Program-made: the position numbers and the translations under genes
Source of the DNA: Trichothermofontia sichuanensis B231
GTDB lineage: Bacteria; Cyanobacteriota; Cyanobacteriia; B231
Length of the DNA: 64,000 bases
NCBI RefSeq assembly: GCF_026240635.1
Contig: NZ_CP110848.1
Coordinates: 1,118,501-1,182,500 of the forward strand
Direction of reading: 5' to 3'
Notes under the pieces: model-generated
Database searches by the model: none
What the model was told of the DNA's origin: nothing
Seen by the model: the letters and a program-made list of their open reading frames with translations, nothing else
Shown here: positions 20,316 through 48,310 of the stretch, one piece after another
How positions within the stretch are numbered: position 1 is the first letter of the stretch
Layout: every line of letters begins with the position of its first letter

Positions 20316-21221
20316 ATGATTAGAGGGCTAACTGTGATTACTGCCTTCACCAGGGGAGGCATTCTTTTGGATAGTCAAGGATTGCTCAAGCAAGACCAAC
20401 ACTTATTAGAGGAACTTCTGCACCTGCGTCAGGAGATTCGTCACCTCCAGGCCGAAATCCAGGATTTGCAGATAGCCCTCTCAACAACTGCTGAGCACGG
20501 TGATTTAGTTGAAGCTCAACTCTACCAAACTAATCAACAATTACAGGCCGAAATTTCAGTACGTCAGAAAACTGAGGCCATGCTACATGCCCTGTTAGAC
20601 CTTCTGTCACAGGAGAAAACGGATCTGGAGATCATCGTTAAAACCATCATGGAGCATGGGGATGTGGTAGATGCCCAATGGTCACAAAAGTTACAAGAAA
20701 TTACCCTCTTGGCTGCTTCTGATGGACTGACCCAAATCCCGAATCGTCGTCATTTTGATCAGCATCTTGCTCAACAGTGGACACAAATGGCGCGGGAGCA
20801 AAAACCCCTGGCAGTTTTGCTATGTGATATTGACTATTTCAAACAATACAATGATGCCTATGGACACTTAGCGGGGGATAATTGCCTGCAACGGGTAGCT
20901 CAAACTCTGTACCACAGTGTACGCCGTCCCTTTGATTTAGTCGCTCGGTATGGGGGGGAAGAATTTGCTGCCGTTTTGCCGGGAACCAGGTGGGGAGGGG
21001 CGATCAAAGTGGCCCAACGGATGCGCACGGCAGTCGCACAACTAGAGATTCCCCACTGTGCGTCCCCAATTTCAGCCTATATTACCGTCAGCATTGGTGT
21101 GGCTAGCCTGATCCCCAGCACCGATCTAGCTGCAATCCACCTGGTGACGATCGCCGATCGTCACCTGTACCAGGCCAAACAACAGGGACGCGATCAGATC
21201 TGTCCAGCTCAGAGAGATTGA
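20316..21221 (+). CDS. Diguanylate cyclase (GGEEF) with HGD coiled-coil module
   Basis: A 301-residue protein that should make cyclic di-GMP from GTP. The catalytic motif GGEEF (213-217) is intact, as is DIDYFKQYND (metal-binding Asp). RPFD (204-207), five residues before GGEEF, matches the product-inhibition I-site RxxD. The N-terminal 130 residues are a coiled coil carrying HGD at 61-63 and 114-116, each in the context DL-x5-TT/TI-x-EHGD. The same module, with the same 53-residue spacing, heads the adenylyl cyclase at 27808-29295. There is no membrane segment. Its end overlaps the convergent beta-CASP gene by 13 bases. Confidence 0.93.
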   Translation: MIRGLTVITAFTRGGILLDSQGLLKQDQHLLEELLHLRQEIRHLQAEIQDLQIALSTTAEHGDLVEAQLYQTNQQLQAEISVRQKTEAMLHALLDLLSQEKTDLEIIVKTIMEHGDVVDAQWSQKLQEITLLAASDGLTQIPNRRHFDQHLAQQWTQMAREQKPLAVLLCDIDYFKQYNDAYGHLAGDNCLQRVAQTLYHSVRRPFDLVARYGGEEFAAVLPGTRWGGAIKVAQRMRTAVAQLEIPHCASPISAYITVSIGVASLIPSTDLAAIHLVTIADRHLYQAKQQGRDQICPAQRD

Positions 21222-25551: not shown

Positions 25552-27669
25552 TTAGATTTGCTTTAATACCAGTAGGCTGAGATCATCGCGCAAGGGTTCA
25601 TCCCCCACATAGCGCCACACATCCTCCAGCACCGCCTGCCGGATCTCTAGGGCCGATCGCTGGGCATGGGCGCACACCACCTGGCACAGACGCTCCAGTC
25701 CATACTGCTCCCGGGCTGCATTGGTCGCCTCTGTAATGCCATCGGTGTAGAGCACAACGACATCTCCCGTCTGTAATTGCACAGTTTTCTCCCTGACAAA
25801 TGCGGTGATGTCCGGTTCCAGGCCCAAGGGAAACCCCAAGTCGATTGTATCAATCCGCTCCACTTGGCCCGTCGCCCGCACCAGAATCAACTCCTCATGC
25901 TGACCGCTTAGGCGCAGGTGACCTGCCTCATACTCCAGTAAAGCCAGAGTCAGGCTTTTGCTCGATTGCATCCGTTGCAAGTTATCGTAGAGTGCTCGAT
26001 TCAGCGTCCCCAGGAACTTCACCGGATTGGCCTCCTGGTTCACCAACAGCGTCCGCACCGCCGTTTGCACCATCAGCATCAGCACCCCACTGTCCAAGCC
26101 ATGACCGGTGACATCGCCGATGCCAATTTTTACCTTGCCGTTGTATTGCAAGACGTCGTAGTAATCCCCCCCGACTTCGGCGGCAGGTTCCATAAATCCG
26201 GCAATCTGCAACCCCGCGATTGCCGCCAGTTCCTCCTCCTTGGGCAAGAGTAACCGTTGCAAGCGACGGGCTACATCCAACTCGGTGCCCAGCCGTTGGT
26301 TCTCCGCCGCCAATTGCTCATTGAGGTGGGAAATCTCCTGGTTCGCTGCTTGGAGTTCAAACGTGCGTTGGGCCACCCGTTGCTCCAGATCCGCATTGGC
26401 TGCTGCCAAGGCTGCAAATGAGGTCCGCAGTTGCTCAGCCATACGGTTAAAGGAGTGGGAGAGAGTTTCCAATTCCCGGACCCCCGTCACCTGCACCTGC
26501 TGGTCAAGCTCGCCATCCGCGATCGCCTGCGCCGCCGTATTCAAGCGCAGGATCGGGGTGGCAATCCAGTGGGCCGTCACCAACCCCACCCCCGTCGCCA
26601 GCAGCAAGGCCAGCAGCGACAGGCTGATCGTCCGCTGGGTGTTTGCCTGGATCTGGGTCATGAAGTCGGCTGCGGGGATAACGACCACAATCAGCCAATC
26701 GAGGCCGCGTTTATCCACAAAAGGGGTTACCTGTACCCATTGCAGTGACCCATCATCGCGGTGAAAATTCAACTGCTGGGTGGTTTGAATGTGGTTTAAG
26801 TCACTAAATTGGGTCGTCAAATATCGGGCAGTGGCTTGGATCAGAGGACTTTGACTGGCGATCGCGGACACCCGCTTGAGATCTTCCCCACTCCCCGTCA
26901 GCAGGGGTTCCCCCAGGGAGGAAGAGACCAGTAAACCCGATCGTTCGATGACAAAGGCTTGACCCGACTGGCTAATACGGAGACTGGTTAGGAAATTACT
27001 GACTTCCTTATGCAGGAAAAGGTCGATCGCGCATACACCCAATAATTGACGGTCAGTGAGACTATAAACGGGTAGCGCCGCCGTAATCGTAGGTAAATTG
27101 GTATTGAAATCAATATAGGTATCACTCCATATCGCCCGGCCCGCCGCCTTCGCTGCTTTATACCAGGGGCGGACACGGGGATCAAACTGGCGGGTCCGCA
27201 ATAACTGGGTGGCTTCCCCCTGCGCGTTCAATGCGTAGTAGTGACGCCGGTAATTGATGGCGGGATTGATTAGAGATAGGACCAGCGGCTCATTATCCTG
27301 GAAGCGAGCCACACCCATAAATTCTCCCCCCGCTTCGCCCCCACAGTACACATTACTCAGGTTCTTGAATTGCACCACCTGTTGCCAGAGTTGGGCACTG
27401 CCCTGGCCTGTCTTTAGGTTAATCACCCCGCGTTGGAGGGCACTGCCGTTAAGATGAATCAAACTGTGGGGCAGATCAACATAGGTTTGCATTTGCTGTT
27501 GAATGCGGTTTGTCAACTCCTGCCGCAATTGGGAGGCCAAGTCGGCGATCGCCCGCTGACCGTTCCGAAAGGAGAGATAGCCCACAATGCCCACCAAGCC
27601 CGCAAGCTGCAGAACAAAGGGGACCACCAGCAGCGATCGCAAACTTATCTGAGATCGTTTCACCGTCAT
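25552..27669 (-). CDS. Membrane PP2C/SpoIIE-type serine phosphatase with Cache and HAMP domains
   Basis: About 705 residues from ATG at 27669 (MTVKRSQISLRSLL); the frame is open to 27723. Layout: one transmembrane helix at the N-terminus, a periplasmic double-Cache sensor (about 40-350), a second helix (LALLLATGVGLVTAHWIA), HAMP, a coiled coil, and a SpoIIE/RsbU-type PP2C domain from about 490. Metal-binding aspartates are visible in GGDYYDVLQ, IGDVTGHGLDS, YTDGITEA and DDLSLLVL. The family dephosphorylates a serine on a STAS-domain protein; the STAS gene at 29306 is in the same cluster. It is therefore the likely signal-sensing input of a partner switch, responding to an extracellular small molecule. 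Confidence 0.93.
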   Translation of the reverse strand: MTVKRSQISLRSLLVVPFVLQLAGLVGIVGYLSFRNGQRAIADLASQLRQELTNRIQQQMQTYVDLPHSLIHLNGSALQRGVINLKTGQGSAQLWQQVVQFKNLSNVYCGGEAGGEFMGVARFQDNEPLVLSLINPAINYRRHYYALNAQGEATQLLRTRQFDPRVRPWYKAAKAAGRAIWSDTYIDFNTNLPTITAALPVYSLTDRQLLGVCAIDLFLHKEVSNFLTSLRISQSGQAFVIERSGLLVSSSLGEPLLTGSGEDLKRVSAIASQSPLIQATARYLTTQFSDLNHIQTTQQLNFHRDDGSLQWVQVTPFVDKRGLDWLIVVVIPAADFMTQIQANTQRTISLSLLALLLATGVGLVTAHWIATPILRLNTAAQAIADGELDQQVQVTGVRELETLSHSFNRMAEQLRTSFAALAAANADLEQRVAQRTFELQAANQEISHLNEQLAAENQRLGTELDVARRLQRLLLPKEEELAAIAGLQIAGFMEPAAEVGGDYYDVLQYNGKVKIGIGDVTGHGLDSGVLMLMVQTAVRTLLVNQEANPVKFLGTLNRALYDNLQRMQSSKSLTLALLEYEAGHLRLSGQHEELILVRATGQVERIDTIDLGFPLGLEPDITAFVREKTVQLQTGDVVVLYTDGITEATNAAREQYGLERLCQVVCAHAQRSALEIRQAVLEDVWRYVGDEPLRDDLSLLVLKQI

Positions 27670-27807
27670 ATCCCCCTCCCTCACCCATTGTTCCATCAGC
27701 AAGCGTCGCCGAGTACACCTCAACCAGGACTATTCTAGGGGTTTCCCGACCCGCCACTGTTCGGTTGGGCACCGCTGTTGCCCGCTTCCTCACACCCTGC
27801 CGCCAAA

Positions 27808-29295
27808 TTACAAGCGGTGTTTGCGACCCAACAGCCAGTAGGTACGCATCATCCCTTTACCCTTAATATGCAGATTGCCACGGGGTTGCAATTCGTAGTG
27901 GGCCGCTAGGGCCTGGTAGACCACCTCTGTCACCTGGATACATCCCGCTTTTCCTTGCGACTCCATGCGACTGGCGATATTGACCGTATCTCCCCACAGG
28001 TCATAACTGAACCTACGCGTGCCAATAACCCCCGCTACCACAGGACCGGTATGAATACCAATCCTCAACGTCAAGGGCAACCCCGCCGGCGTCCGAAATT
28101 GTCGAATCGCTGTCAACATATCCAGCGCTAAATTTGCCGCCGCATCGATCTGATCAACCTGGGGGTTGGGAACCCCACCCACCACCATATAGGCATCCCC
28201 GATCGTTTTAATTTTCTCTAACCGATAGTGATCGACTAACTGATCAAACGTTGAGAAAATCCCATTCAGCAAATTGACCACCGCTTCGGGGGGTGTCGTC
28301 GAGGCCAGAGCCGTAAAATCAACAATATCCGCAAACAAAACCGTCGCCGTAGTAAATGACTCCGCGATCGTCGTCTGCCCCTGCTTCAAACGTCGGGCGA
28401 TCGCGGGGGGCAGGACATTCAGCAACAAACGTTCAGCCAGTTGCCGTTGTTCCCGCAGATCCGCCTCCATCTGGCGGCGATCGGTAATTTCCTGGACACT
28501 ACCTTCGTAGTAACAAATTTTGCCAGCGTCATCGTGCACCGTACGCACATTCTCAGAAATCCAGATGATCGTGCCATCGCGGCGATAGACCTGGGACTCA
28601 AATCCAGAGACACTACCAAACTGGCGCAAATAGACTAGCAACTCCTCCCGCCGTTTAGGCTGGACATACAGCGTGCCCACATTGGTCACCGCCGTCATCA
28701 AGGCTGCCGGTGAGTCATAGCCCAAGATCCTGGCTAGAGTGGGATTGGCACTGAGGTAATGCCCAGTTTCAGTTACCTGAAAGATCCCTTCAGCCGCATT
28801 CTCAAAAATACTGCGATACTTGGCCTCTGCCTGCCGCAATTGGGCCGTTTGTGCTGCCACCTGTTGTTCAAGAGCCTCAGCCTGTTTGCGCAAGGCTTCC
28901 TCAGATTGGCGCATGGCTTCCACCGCCTGAGTATAGAACTGATACTCCAGCATGTCGCCGTGGGCTGCTGTGGTTTCGAGGATTAATTCCAGGTCGGCCT
29001 TATCTCGCAATACCGTAGCCAAAATTTCCTGCAGAGCTGCTTGCGCCAGTTGACGTTCGGTCACCTCGGCTTGCAGACGCTGATTGGCCGCGTGCAGTTG
29101 GGCCTCAATCAAATCGCCGTGTTCCGTCGTGGTTAGCAGGGCAATGTGCAGGTCCTGATTCTCTCGGCGCAGCCGCTCAACCTCAGCCTCAAGGTGCGCA
29201 ACTTGAGACCGCAGCGTTTCCATTGCCTCGCTACCAGGAAATTGCTCGGTGGGTTCACGGGCAGACCCGCCACTATCCTGAAACATTGGCCCCAT
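27808..29295 (-). CDS. Class III adenylyl cyclase with HGD coiled coil and PAS domain
   Basis: A 495-residue soluble protein. Residues about 25-150 are a coiled coil with HGD at 59-61 and 112-114, the module shared with the diguanylate cyclase at 20316. A PAS/PAC domain follows (YRSIFENAAEGIFQVTETG ... GSVQEITDRR), then a short helix and the cyclase domain from about 320 (TVLFADIVDFTALAS). Metal-binding Asp residues are in FADIVDF. The base-selecting pair reads Lys (IKTIGDAYM) and Asp (YDLWGDTVN), which predicts ATP rather than GTP as substrate, and the NIASRMES Asn/Arg pair is intact. It lies 10 bases after the STAS gene and just before the phosphatase gene, so it is probably in the same transcript. 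Confidence 0.93.
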   Translation of the reverse strand: MGPMFQDSGGSAREPTEQFPGSEAMETLRSQVAHLEAEVERLRRENQDLHIALLTTTEHGDLIEAQLHAANQRLQAEVTERQLAQAALQEILATVLRDKADLELILETTAAHGDMLEYQFYTQAVEAMRQSEEALRKQAEALEQQVAAQTAQLRQAEAKYRSIFENAAEGIFQVTETGHYLSANPTLARILGYDSPAALMTAVTNVGTLYVQPKRREELLVYLRQFGSVSGFESQVYRRDGTIIWISENVRTVHDDAGKICYYEGSVQEITDRRQMEADLREQRQLAERLLLNVLPPAIARRLKQGQTTIAESFTTATVLFADIVDFTALASTTPPEAVVNLLNGIFSTFDQLVDHYRLEKIKTIGDAYMVVGGVPNPQVDQIDAAANLALDMLTAIRQFRTPAGLPLTLRIGIHTGPVVAGVIGTRRFSYDLWGDTVNIASRMESQGKAGCIQVTEVVYQALAAHYELQPRGNLHIKGKGMMRTYWLLGRKHRL

Positions 29296-29305
29296 TAACC
29301 ATGCA

Positions 29306-29647
29306 CTAACTAAACTCTAGCTGAAGGGAAGGCATCAATCGCTGGAGATTCTTGAGCGATTTGGCCTGCCAGAGGACCTGATCGGATCCCTGAAACACCA
29401 AGACTGCATCGCCCTTCTGGCGAACCTTTACCACAAACATTGACAACATACTGATGCCGGAGCTATTGAGGAACTCCAACTCGCGCAGGTTAATGATCAA
29501 TGTGGGGGATTGGGCCAGCACGCCCAGGAGGAGATCCATGATCGGTCGATATTCCTCCATCCCCTCCAAACGAAGAAATCCTCGGAAAAAGACCGTGGAA
29601 GTTTCCGGCTCATACCAAACGGCATAATCGTTTGTTTTAATTTCCAC
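29306..29647 (-). CDS. STAS-like anti-sigma-factor-antagonist-type protein
   Basis: A 113-residue single-domain protein. The core LIINLRELEFLNSSGISMLS carries the serine pair typical of the phosphorylation site of SpoIIAA/RsbV-like STAS proteins. The N-terminal NDYAVWYEPETSTVFFRGFL is a variant seen in cyanobacterial partner-switch proteins. GTG at 29647 is the start; AGGAG lies 9 bases upstream. Its neighbours are a GHKL kinase-like protein upstream and a SpoIIE phosphatase downstream, so it should be the protein whose phosphorylation state is switched between the two. Confidence 0.85.
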   Translation of the reverse strand: MEIKTNDYAVWYEPETSTVFFRGFLRLEGMEEYRPIMDLLLGVLAQSPTLIINLRELEFLNSSGISMLSMFVVKVRQKGDAVLVFQGSDQVLWQAKSLKNLQRLMPSLQLEFS

Positions 29648-29720
29648 AGGTATTCACTCCTGACTGTGTGGTTAAAGGTCCAAGGCTTAAAGGTCAGTAA
29701 GGCTAACACATGGACTACCC

Positions 29721-30317
29721 CTAACCGGGAATGGGCAAGCAGACTATCACCGTAATTTTGACGGTTTCTAGGTGATCAGCCAGCGGCTGCAAGGACCAGC
29801 CCATCTTCGCACCATAGTCATGCATAATCGTCAGCAACCCCATTTGCGACGGCCCTGTCCCCGTTGCCGTTTTCTCCAGTTGGTGGGTATAAAATTCATC
29901 CAAATCAGCCGCTAGTAATGTTTCAATAAATGTCTGGTAGGTGGCAGCCCAAGTCGTACTTGTATAGTTAGTCACTTCAAAGATAATCTCATGGGCATAT
30001 AGATGCAGGGTAATGCTAATGGGGTGATTGTTGCCTTCGACACTGTACTTGACTGCATTTTCCATCAACTCATTGGCGATATAACTGACGACAGCCTTAA
30101 CTGTATCCTGGCGATTAATTTTGCTATCCGGGATTTGATCACCCGGGAAAAATGCGGCGAAATAGTCGCCCAGAAAATCAGCAGACAAGCCATAGTTCCG
30201 CCATCGGCGACGGCGAGGCGGCGAGGCGGGGGAAAAGTGAAGCGTTAAATATTCATCACTGGCGGGGATGCTGTCTAAGGAAAGACCGAAGGTTTGGGCT
30301 GGGGGAGGGGGCATCAT
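29721..30317 (-). CDS. GHKL ATPase-like anti-sigma/kinase protein (DUF6272-like)
   Basis: A 198-residue soluble protein with an N-box SYIANELMENAVKYS (about residue 80) and a glycine-containing region TGPSQMGLLTIMHDYGA, fitting a compact GHKL fold of the RsbW/SpoIIAB type as found in cyanobacterial partner-switch loci. The N-terminal PPRRRRWRNYG is encoded by a GC-rich, repetitive stretch. The glycine-rich G2 box is weak, so kinase activity is inferred from family and context, not from all motifs. It is the first gene of the signalling cluster and lies 76 bases downstream of cobH. Confidence 0.75.
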   Translation of the reverse strand: MMPPPPAQTFGLSLDSIPASDEYLTLHFSPASPPRRRRWRNYGLSADFLGDYFAAFFPGDQIPDSKINRQDTVKAVVSYIANELMENAVKYSVEGNNHPISITLHLYAHEIIFEVTNYTSTTWAATYQTFIETLLAADLDEFYTHQLEKTATGTGPSQMGLLTIMHDYGAKMGWSLQPLADHLETVKITVIVCLPIPG

Positions 30318-30393: not shown

Positions 30394-31131
30394 TCAGATG
30401 CCTTTCCGCTCCACTGCCTCTATGGTGGGTTGCTGCTCAGCGATCGCGATGTCACATTCTGGTCGGATGGCTAATAGTAATAGGGCATTCACGATCGCGG
30501 CTGCCACTGCCGATCCACCCTTGCGACCTTCGGTCCAAATTTTGGGCACAGGGGTTTGGCGCAGGACGGCTTTGGATTCCAACACTGCCACAAAGCCAAC
30601 GGGCACACCAATAATCAACGCGGGAGGCTGGGGCGCTTGGGCCACTTGGTTGCACAGGGCAAGGAGAGCGGTGGGGGCATTCCCGATGACGTAAATAGCG
30701 TGGGGATACTGCTGCCAGCACTGCAACATGCCCGTTTCCGTGCGCGTGCGGTTAGGTTGGGGCTGGGTTACCGGCTCGATGGCACAGAGGAGGGGGTTAC
30801 CCAGGGTGCGAGCGATCGTGCCCTGGACGCCCTGTTTCACCATGCCGACATCGACCACGATCGGCACGCCAGCCCGGAGTGCTGTGATCCCTTGGGCGAT
30901 CGCATCGGGGCTGAAGCGCAGCAGATCCTTAAACTCAAAGTCAGCGGTACTGTGGATCACCCGTTGCACGATCGCATACTCCTCAGCCGTGAAGGCATGT
31001 GGCCCGATTTCGCGATCGATTTGGGCAAAACTTTGCTGGAGAATAGGATGGATGAGTGCCGACGGCGGGCAAGATCCTGGCTCGGACATGGGCAAGGGCA
31101 TGGGAAACAAACCAAGAGGGATCAGTCCCAT
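30394..31131 (-). CDS. cobH: Precorrin-8X/cobalt-precorrin-8 methylmutase
   Basis: CobH/CbiC moves a methyl group from C-11 to C-12 of the corrin precursor to give hydrogenobyrinate or cobyrinate. The family pattern is complete: HPILQQSFAQIDREIG, then the catalytic histidine in VIHSTADFEFKDLLRF, DVGMVKQGVQG, IGNAPTALLALC, and IGVPVGFVAVLESKAVL, ending in RKGGSAVAAAIVNALL. Length is 245 residues, with a variable leader of about 20. The gene is followed by the partner-switch cluster; co-transcription is possible but the roles are unrelated as far as known. No cobalamin-riboswitch boxes were recognised upstream. Confidence 0.95.
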   Translation of the reverse strand: MGLIPLGLFPMPLPMSEPGSCPPSALIHPILQQSFAQIDREIGPHAFTAEEYAIVQRVIHSTADFEFKDLLRFSPDAIAQGITALRAGVPIVVDVGMVKQGVQGTIARTLGNPLLCAIEPVTQPQPNRTRTETGMLQCWQQYPHAIYVIGNAPTALLALCNQVAQAPQPPALIIGVPVGFVAVLESKAVLRQTPVPKIWTEGRKGGSAVAAAIVNALLLLAIRPECDIAIAEQQPTIEAVERKGI

Positions 31132-45679: not shown

Positions 45680-48310
45680 CTACTTTTCCGTTAAAACCCA
45701 GGCACCATCCCAATCCTCCGGCGGTGGATTTTGGAGATAATGTTGACAACGTTCCAGGTGCAGCGCTGCCGATTTATCATGCTTATCTAACCCCAACACC
45801 ATGCCAAACTGGGCCATTGCCATTGGGAAATTACGCTCCAGATAGTACTTCCGTCCCTGGTGGTATAGATCAATAATTTGTTTTTTCACATCCGAGATTG
45901 GCTCGCTAGCCAGTCCAATCAGTTCATACACAGCCACTGGCTTAGTCTTGCCTTTCACCGTGATGTAGTCCAACTCCCTAGCCCAAACCCGTTCCGCACA
46001 AGGCCGATAGGTCATTTCACTGATCACAATGTCTGTACCATAGATCTTACTGGCCGACTCCAAACGCGCTCCCAGATTGACCCCATCCCCGATCGCGGTA
46101 AATTCCATGCGCTTACTGGAGCCGATATTACCGCTAATGACCACGTCCGAGTTAATGCCAATGCCAATCCGGATGGGCAGATAATTATGGGCAATACGTT
46201 CCTCGTTAAACACCGCCAATCGATGGCGCATTTCGATCGCCGTTTGCACAGCCATCCATTCATGATCTTCTAGGGGCAAGGGTGACCCAAACACAGCCAT
46301 AATAGCATCACCAATATACTTATCCAGGGTCCCCTTGTAGGCAAAAACGGCATCCACCATTGCCTCAAAATACTTATTCAGCATGTCCACAACCTCTTCA
46401 GCGCTGAGGCTTTCGGTTAGGGTGGTATAGCTGCGAATATCCGAAAACAGAACCGTCACTTCCTTACGATCGCCGCCCATTTTGGCTGCATCGGGGTTTT
46501 CCAATAGCTGTTCGGCCAACTCCTGGGTCATATAGCGGTACATGGTGCTTTTCAGGCGCTTTTCATCGCTAATATCATCCATGACTACCAGCGCCCCAGA
46601 AACCTGCTGTCCCTCACGCGCATCTTCGATCGTGATCGTATTAATTGACAAATTGATACTGTGGTAATCGCCTCCCTCAACTGGCTGAAGCGTCTGATCA
46701 GGGTAATATTGTTGCTGGCTTTTACCATCCTTAGCTTCAATGGCCGCCATGAACCAGCGGCGGAAATCACCCTTTTCCAGATGCACCAGATCCAGGATTG
46801 ATCGTCCTTCTAAGTTGGCGGTCGGTGGCAGTCCTAATAGCTGTTTCGCACTTTCATTGGCTGCAATAATTTGTCCTTCTTTATTGGTAGAAATCACGCC
46901 GTTGGAAAGCGATCGCAAAATATCACGCTGGAGTTGCTCCTGTTGCTTCACCGTAGCAAACAATTTCGCATTCTTCAGAGCTACCCCAGCCTGAATGTTG
47001 AACGCCTCCATAAATTCCTGATCACTACGGTTAAAACTGGCCTTCCAACATTCTGGTGCCTTCGGCCAGTCAGCCGGGTCATAGGCAGGAAACTCCCCTT
47101 GCTTTTTCTTATTTACCAACTGGGTAACCCCAATCAATTCCCCATCGGCAAACACTGGCATACAAAGCAGACTACAGGTCCGATAGCCACTGGATTGATC
47201 CGTCTTTTTGGCTGTCTCTGCCCCCTCCATATCGTAGAGGTCGAAGGGTATATTCAGCACTTCCCCTGTAGCCGCTACCTGACCTGCAAATCCCACCCCG
47301 ATCGGATAGCGAAACTCCCGCAGACTGCCATCCGCAACCAGGATTTTGGTCCAAATTTCACCCCGATCGCGATCCAATAGCCAGAGGGTACTACGATCAG
47401 CATTCATCAGAGACTTCGCCTCATCCATCACCCGCCGCAGCGTATCGTCGAGATCGAGGCTGCTCTGGCTCAGGGACTGGGTTGCCTTAATCAGGGCGTT
47501 AGCCGCCCGTTGGCGTTGGGTCGCGATATAGAACGATCGCGATGACTGCAAAATTAAACGAATCGATGGCGCAAATTCGCGGAAAACTTCCTCATCATTA
47601 GCCGTAAACCCCCCTAGGTCAATCTTTTGTTCCAGAGGAATACTGGGGTCAGGATTGGGCTTCAGTTTATTAAGCAGTTGTACCACGGCTACCAGATTGC
47701 CACCCTCGTCCAGAAGTGGCAGCGCCAGCATGGTGTAGGTACGGTAGCCATTCTTCTGATCCTGGATTTTGGCAAAGGCCGATCGGGGATCGTCATAAAA
47801 ATCATAGGGGATATTCACAACCCGCTTAAAGGTCGCCACTTCTCCGGCAATCCCCTTATCAGCCGGAATACGAATTTCAACCGTGCCCTGTTGCCCTTCC
47901 CCCTTGGCAATAATGGAGTAAAGTTCATTCTTTTCTTCGTCCAGTAAAAAGATACTGGTGCGATCAGCATTGAGCAGTTCGCCAATCTTAAAGGTAATTG
48001 AACTCAGCATTTCCTCCAGGATCGACTCAAACCCCTGGAGTTCGAGCATGGACAGGGTTTGGTTAACAACCTTTAGCTTCGCCTCCACATCGCTGACCAC
48101 CTGCCGGAAGGTCTCCTGTGTCAGGGGAGCTAAAAAGGCAGAAAAGCTGCCCCGTGTCGTCGTGAGGGCACTAGAAGTGGCCTCAGCTCTTGTCAGATGG
48201 TCTTGGGGCCTAGTATCCATGATGGGTGAGCTATCCGTCCGCTCGGTAGCGGCATCAAGGACAACCACGGTTGCATCGACGGTGGGAACATGCGGCGATG
48301 GGGCTGACAT
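45680..48310 (-). CDS. Class III adenylyl cyclase with two GAF domains and a PAS domain
   Basis: An 876-residue soluble protein. Two GAF domains (about 85-255 and 275-455) have matching motifs (LLNADRTSIFLLDEEKNELY; LMNADRSTLWLLDRDRGEIW), followed by a PAS domain (about 465-590; SNGVISTNKEGQIIAANESA) and the cyclase domain (about 630-790; VTVLFSDIRSYTTLTESL). Base-selecting residues are Lys (LDKYIGDAI) and Thr (EFTAIGDGVN), typical of bacterial adenylyl cyclases. A TPR-like tail (GRKYYLERNFPMAMAQFGMV) ends the protein. The tandem GAF layout resembles the cAMP-sensing cyanobacterial CyaB cyclases, in which GAF domains bind cAMP in positive feedback; the ligand here is inferred only. Single gene. 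Confidence 0.93.
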   Translation of the reverse strand: MSAPSPHVPTVDATVVVLDAATERTDSSPIMDTRPQDHLTRAEATSSALTTTRGSFSAFLAPLTQETFRQVVSDVEAKLKVVNQTLSMLELQGFESILEEMLSSITFKIGELLNADRTSIFLLDEEKNELYSIIAKGEGQQGTVEIRIPADKGIAGEVATFKRVVNIPYDFYDDPRSAFAKIQDQKNGYRTYTMLALPLLDEGGNLVAVVQLLNKLKPNPDPSIPLEQKIDLGGFTANDEEVFREFAPSIRLILQSSRSFYIATQRQRAANALIKATQSLSQSSLDLDDTLRRVMDEAKSLMNADRSTLWLLDRDRGEIWTKILVADGSLREFRYPIGVGFAGQVAATGEVLNIPFDLYDMEGAETAKKTDQSSGYRTCSLLCMPVFADGELIGVTQLVNKKKQGEFPAYDPADWPKAPECWKASFNRSDQEFMEAFNIQAGVALKNAKLFATVKQQEQLQRDILRSLSNGVISTNKEGQIIAANESAKQLLGLPPTANLEGRSILDLVHLEKGDFRRWFMAAIEAKDGKSQQQYYPDQTLQPVEGGDYHSINLSINTITIEDAREGQQVSGALVVMDDISDEKRLKSTMYRYMTQELAEQLLENPDAAKMGGDRKEVTVLFSDIRSYTTLTESLSAEEVVDMLNKYFEAMVDAVFAYKGTLDKYIGDAIMAVFGSPLPLEDHEWMAVQTAIEMRHRLAVFNEERIAHNYLPIRIGIGINSDVVISGNIGSSKRMEFTAIGDGVNLGARLESASKIYGTDIVISEMTYRPCAERVWARELDYITVKGKTKPVAVYELIGLASEPISDVKKQIIDLYHQGRKYYLERNFPMAMAQFGMVLGLDKHDKSAALHLERCQHYLQNPPPEDWDGAWVLTEK

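Follow-up and report, generated by a model that had tools for sequence, protein, structure and literature searches.

The Trichothermofontia sichuanensis B231 genome carries a four-gene cluster (25552-30317, minus strand) that encodes, in order, a GHKL kinase, a STAS protein, a predicted class III adenylyl cyclase and a Cache-HAMP-SpoIIE phosphatase. We propose that these proteins probably constitute a partner switch resembling SiaABCD of Pseudomonas aeruginosa, in which the STAS protein controls the adenylyl cyclase by acting on its N-terminal stalk. In our best reading, what is new is that the output of a Sia-like switch is an adenylyl cyclase, whose stalk is common to a diguanylate cyclase encoded nearby. 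Positions are those of the window, the whole 64,000-nucleotide stretch of DNA that was analysed; the features are as follows.

29721..30317, minus strand: GHKL serine-kinase-like protein of the slr1658 family, 198 aa (NCBIfam NF052618; AlphaFold2 fold)
29306..29647, minus strand: STAS protein of the slr1659 superfamily, 113 aa, GTG start (NCBIfam NF047705)
29462-29464, minus strand: putative phosphoserine S62 of the STAS protein (invariant site in the alignment)
27808..29295, minus strand: predicted class III adenylyl cyclase, 495 aa, with stalk, PAS (about 159-270) and catalytic domain (311-489) (Pfam Guanylate_cyc)
28897..29205, minus strand: coiled-coil stalk of the cyclase with two motifs (A1 profile; internal repeat)
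25552..27723, minus strand: Cache-HAMP-SpoIIE (PP2C-type) membrane phosphatase, 723 aa as listed (Pfam SpoIIE, HAMP, dCache_1)
20316..21221, plus strand: stalked diguanylate cyclase, proposed second output, stalk at 20412-20720 (GGDEF; stalk similarity)

The components of the cluster

The original prediction had placed the four genes on one strand in this order, with gaps of 10 to about 140 bases, and both statements were borne out: all four lie on the minus strand, and the gaps are 73, 10 and 84 bases, the third being 138 if the phosphatase starts at the likelier ATG at 27669, which is preceded by a purine-rich, ribosome-binding-like stretch. Promoter and terminator scans of the cluster gave nothing richer than shuffled sequences. 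A precorrin-8X methylmutase (CbiC) gene (30394-31131), likewise on the minus strand, precedes the cluster by 76 bases and could belong to the same transcript.

The kinase scores 230.2 bits against the NCBIfam model slr1658_cyano (NF052618, cut-off 200) and the STAS protein 155.4 bits against slr1659_superfam (NF047705, cut-off 100), and a score of 210.1 was obtained with NF047703 (cut-off 100) of the same group of families; the Pfam matches of the pair, STAS (22.0, cut-off 22.6) and DUF6272 (24.2, cut-off 26.6), are both slightly under the cut-off. By these models the two proteins are assigned to the poorly studied slr1658/slr1659 families, the NCBIfam families of slr1658/slr1659 of Synechocystis sp. 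PCC 6803. Pairs of this kind also occur in records of Candidatus Parabeggiatoa, Thioploca and Gracilibacteria (L159, L194 and L189), either by transfer or by contamination. The B231 genome has a single slr1659-type STAS gene. The conserved serine already noticed in it is S62, which lies in the site N61-S62-S63-G64; N61, S62 and G64 are invariant in all 130 aligned STAS proteins, 118 of which are distinct and long enough.

The AlphaFold2 models of the STAS protein and the kinase have pLDDT values of 95.3 and 90.3, respectively. In a Foldseek search of the PDB with the STAS model, eight of the nine chains with E <= 0.001 were SiaC, and VIA gave SiaC a Z of 12.6 (rmsd 2.5, 112 aligned), tied with RsfB (Z 12.1). 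The top PDB fold for the kinase model was SiaB (6kko_A, Foldseek E 8.8e-5), with a VIA Z of 13.3 (rmsd 3.3, 155 aligned), tied with UsfX (Z 12.9). SiaB and SiaC are thus the first matches of the predicted folds, with canonical sigma-factor regulators tied or close. At the level of sequence, the kinase model had no match to PDB sequences at E <= 10, the kinase scored 15.2 bits against the SiaB family (NF038262, cut-off 85, not reached), and hhalign gave a probability of 13% with one SiaB-like neighbour of an over-cut-off SiaD. For the STAS protein, only two STAS models were listed at E <= 1 in the Pfam scan, and hhalign against one SiaC-like protein gave a probability of 10%, yet aligned the LN[TS]S site (LNSSG with LNTSS). 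By sequence order, N61-S62-S63 corresponds to N67-T68-S69 of SiaC.

The cyclase matches Guanylate_cyc (216.5 bits) and PAS (35.7) of Pfam, both over their cut-offs. A Lys/Asp pair in class III cyclases selects ATP. Such ATP-type residues had been read from the sequence before, and alignment to mammalian adenylyl cyclase 5 confirms them as K363 in EKIKTIG and D432 in YDLWG (numbering from the string DLWGDTVN, located at 432); the metal-binding D323 and D367 as well as N439 and R443 are kept in the same alignment. By its residues the protein qualifies as a class III adenylyl cyclase. The genome has 16 class III cyclase matches. A second domain of this class lies in the window on the minus strand (45926-46465, in an 888-codon open frame) and is absent from the matches of the stalk search described below. 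The phosphatase matches SpoIIE (142.2), HAMP (56.1) and dCache_1 (55.0) of Pfam, all over the cut-offs, and scores 120.8 bits against the SiaA model NF038263, far under its cut-off of 700.

The stalk and its association with the STAS gene

Residues of about 31-133 of the cyclase form a coiled-coil-like stalk in which the motif DLE[IL]xLxTTxEH[GSA]Dx[IVL]E (core DLE-x8-H[GSA]D) occurs twice, with HGD at residues 59 and 112, 53 apart. The internal repeat scores 59, compared to 21.7 +/- 4.6 in shuffled sequences, and none of 200 shuffles scored as high. A stalk profile (A1) was made of 17 stalks from the window and from the STAS loci of a 146-genome sample; the cyclase stalk, itself among these 17 rows, scores 144 bits with it. 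D and H of the motif were preset by the search pattern, but the D after H[GSA] is conserved in 98% and a T in 81% of the motifs. The spacings 25, 32, 53, 60 and 67 follow the series 7n+4, which 76 of 80 spacings fit; 65 of these 76 are 53, a value probably common by descent.

When the first 167 residues of the cyclase were searched against its own genome, one good match was obtained, with an E of 8e-21 and 45% identity over 100 aa. This is the diguanylate cyclase encoded at 20316-21221; the next match had an E of 0.15, and no further class III cyclase appeared at E < 0.1. The two enzymes have only the stalk in common and are encoded 8.5 kb apart in a genome of 4.44 Mb. The stalk of the diguanylate cyclase has HGD at residues 61 and 114, the same 53-residue spacing as in the cyclase. 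Its GGDEF domain scores 182.4 bits in Pfam, and against the NCBIfam model of SiaD it reaches 144.5, under the cut-off of 290.

The distribution of the stalk was followed in 146 cyanobacterial genomes of the class, 45 of which have a slr1659-superfamily STAS protein over the curated cut-off. The stalk (A1, E <= 1e-6) is present in 42 genomes, that is, in 41 of the 45 with the STAS gene and in one of the 101 without it (Fisher 1.9e-30, kinship ignored). When the comparison was confined to the seven GTDB families that include genomes both with and without STAS, it was found in 19 of 22 STAS genomes and in none of the 52 others (the split by family code covers 144 of the 146 genomes, two not being listed); six families agree and one disagrees (f12, with two STAS genomes and no stalk). 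The stalks accompany the kinase too, and not the STAS protein alone. Because the stalk is almost confined to switch-bearing genomes, the distribution suggests that second-messenger enzymes, rather than a transcription factor, are what the switch turns on and off.

Nine genomes of genus g22 have their stalk genes apart from the STAS gene; the products are a GGDEF protein and one of about 680 aa. The unlinked stalk protein of about 674 aa in this genus was considered as a cyclase, which proved wrong: the one that was scanned with Pfam (L094) is a hybrid histidine kinase. Among the named loci described below, 27 have no linked stalk; 18 were tried, and in 13 of these 18 genomes a stalk is encoded elsewhere. 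The other five genomes gave no stalk, a point against the proposed switch; among them is Phormidium sp. LEGE 05292, which by path is the nearest row of the STAS tree.

Neighbourhoods were compared in two overlapping sets, the 49 other places in the sample over the cut-off and the named loci (the best 80 of 528). A stalk gene is present within 6 kb of the STAS gene in 26 of the 49 sample loci and in 53 of the 80 named loci, 79 of 129 together. Among these best 80 of 528, a stalked diguanylate cyclase occurs in 29 and a stalked class III cyclase in 21, five of the latter being histidine kinase-cyclase hybrids and some belonging to a remoter type (L152 and L164, say, score about 75 bits with Guanylate_cyc); both enzymes are found in one cluster in 10. 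This gene-order survey rules out that the cyclase is absent from the cluster in all relatives. The order itself is variable, diguanylate cyclase-kinase-STAS-cyclase in some loci (such as L127, L128, L134 and L137) and the mirror image in L141 and L143; a SpoIIE phosphatase is adjacent in many loci, not in all, and in many a single stalk protein stands beside the STAS protein. The placement of the cyclase between antagonist and phosphatase, from which STAS control of cAMP synthesis had originally been predicted, is consequently not a conserved feature, as cyclase, diguanylate cyclase and phosphatase swap places.

Pfam scans of chosen stalk proteins revealed further outputs, namely hybrid and simple histidine kinases, PAS-only proteins, AAA_35 and EAL-GGDEF proteins. 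The HisKA_3-type histidine kinase L119 (by Pfam) and its look-alike L120 have one N-terminal stalk motif each. In Cyanothece/Crocosphaera (L163, L179 and L199), stalk-plus-HAMP-like proteins of 162-189 aa, in which no catalytic domain was found, are encoded directly after the STAS gene and are possible decoys or adaptors. The diguanylate cyclases of L078, L083 and L085-L087 have an extended stalk with two profile matches, as if more STAS molecules could dock. In L071 (genome G006), the kinase and stalked diguanylate cyclase genes are each split in two frames beside an intact STAS gene, through decay or sequencing error.

Residue 70 of the STAS protein sorts with the stalk motif: M70 is accompanied by 36 all-HGD stalks, 3 mixed and 0 with none, and K/R70 by 1, 6 and 20, respectively. 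We do not claim coevolution, as this is a single split on the tree (one change, one independent pair). Effector swapping on the STAS tree amounts to 25 changes in 74 rows, against a shuffle mean of 42; the count is inflated because the tree is built on 105 columns and 63 of its 115 inner branches are open.

Relation to known partner switches and alternative readings

Partner switches are known mainly as controls of sigma factors, and IcfG is a cyanobacterial triad of phosphatase, kinase and STAS protein. Hmp of the Nostoc hormogonium system is another such triad (PMC8256260, in the portion available). The IcfG and hormogonium loci had been named as cyanobacterial examples of the three-part switch; SiaABCD of Pseudomonas is a better yardstick for the present cluster. 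According to the accessible text of PMC8457831 (see also PMC7647112), unphosphorylated SiaC binds two motifs of the SiaD stalk and activates SiaD in P. aeruginosa, and phosphorylation of T68 of SiaC by SiaB blocks this binding and activation. The likeness lies in the clustering of a HAMP/SpoIIE phosphatase, a GHKL kinase, a small STAS-like protein and a nucleotide cyclase with a two-motif helical stalk, and in the best PDB folds for kinase and STAS protein. The differences are that the output here is an adenylyl cyclase, with a diguanylate cyclase nearby, that a serine stands in place of the threonine of SiaC, that the NCBIfam cut-offs of the Sia proteins are missed, and that the stalk sequences are not relatable.

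We rejected stalk sequence homology to SiaD as evidence, since neither motif scoring nor profile comparison found a relation. When a matrix of 172 distinct motifs was applied to a SiaD over the NCBIfam cut-off (L237, 325.6 bits), 795 of 2000 shuffles scored as high and the ISD motifs were not picked; hhalign of the stalk profile with the SiaD stalk gave 0.2%, and a PDB search with the profile brought up no SiaD chain at E <= 10. The motif spacing in a SiaD is 32, within the 7n+4 series, which is suggestive only. The analogy with Sia rests on architecture and fold, and not on homology of the stalks.

Partner-switch control of diguanylate cyclases has been reported for SiaC-SiaD, HsbA-HsbD of P. 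aeruginosa and BgrV-BgrR of Sinorhizobium meliloti, in the last two of which a STAS protein of the switch exerts the control (PMC8457831, available part). As far as that description goes, HsbA-HsbD and BgrV-BgrR differ from the present system in having no adenylyl cyclase. In the open-licence PMC literature, within the text accessible there, we found no report in which an adenylyl cyclase is under the control of a STAS protein.

In a classical partner switch, the GHKL protein would be an anti-sigma factor and the STAS protein its antagonist, the cyclase being merely on the same transcript. The near equality in fold of the sigma regulators (UsfX with SiaB, RsfB with SiaC) speaks for this arrangement, and not every sigma-type switch need have its sigma factor gene nearby. 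Synechocystis slr1658 has been linked to recovery from iron starvation and to pgr5 expression, and as a transcriptional target would fit the over-expression of pgr5 in the slr1658 mutant too (PMC7555055, accessible portion, citing Zer et al. 2018), this is a further point in its favour. None of the 11 Sigma70_r2 genes of B231, however, lies within about 110 kb of the cluster (the nearest is about 114 kb away), and a sigma factor gene accompanies 8 of 129 related loci (the eight include two repeats of one contig present in both sets), as against the 79 with a stalk gene. The partner that co-occurs is the stalk, carried by many different outputs, and we regard a sigma switch as unlikely.

The stalk might instead be a dimerisation rod, with the cyclase stalk pairing with that of the diguanylate cyclase or serving as a scaffold for the kinase, and with no contact to the STAS protein. 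Both stalks have the 53-residue spacing expected of coiled-coil partners and both co-occur with the kinase; the many loci with a single stalk protein beside the STAS protein, the retention of the motif beyond what heptads need (D and T as above) and the precedent of STAS docking in SiaC/SiaD make this improbable. That the cyclase answers to its own PAS domain and to a separate input, its clustering with the switch being historical, would suit the position of PAS between stalk and catalytic domain and the unlinked stalk proteins of genus g22, but is very improbable given that unlinked stalk genes still track the presence of STAS, that a close homologue (L132, 289 aa) keeps the stalk and has no Pfam PAS match, and that the stalk search of the genome retrieved no other class III cyclase at the threshold given.

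Proposed mechanism and its meaning

The preferred reading, a Sia-like switch in which the STAS protein acts on the cyclase stalk, would operate as follows. The Cache domain of the phosphatase would sense an outside signal and its SpoIIE domain would strip the phosphate from S62 of the STAS protein, which the GHKL protein would rephosphorylate. The unphosphorylated STAS protein would dock on the pair of H[GSA]D motifs in the cyclase's dimeric N-terminal coiled-coil stalk, docking there being expected by analogy with the binding of SiaC to the SiaD stalk, and would shift the two halves of the catalytic unit into register, or less likely out of it, thereby changing cAMP. The same STAS protein would also take hold of the diguanylate cyclase by its stalk, and one switch would thereby act on two second messengers. 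The gene content, the catalytic residues, the folds, the common stalk and its genome-wide association with STAS were established by computation. We strongly infer the link between STAS protein and stalk; the phosphorylation of S62, the docking and its direction, the signal and the production of cAMP are inferred too.

The predicted control of cAMP synthesis by the STAS protein thus gains strong indirect support, as the stalk tracks STAS genes and no sigma factor is near; one difference is that the switch probably has two or more outputs, of which the cyclase would be one, and that it probably controls c-di-GMP too. Going further, we tentatively suggest, as a possibility just short of an even chance, that the stalk is a portable socket for a phospho-switched STAS protein. 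Every output that carries it, be it an adenylyl cyclase, diguanylate cyclase, histidine kinase, EAL-GGDEF protein or AAA ATPase, might then come under the slr1658/slr1659 switch, in cis or in trans, and one membrane phosphatase might jointly address cAMP, c-di-GMP and two-component signalling.

If the proposed switch is true, it would explain the role of the slr1658/slr1659 pair in cyanobacteria and link an outside signal to cAMP, and a single motif would predict further targets, unlinked genes included.
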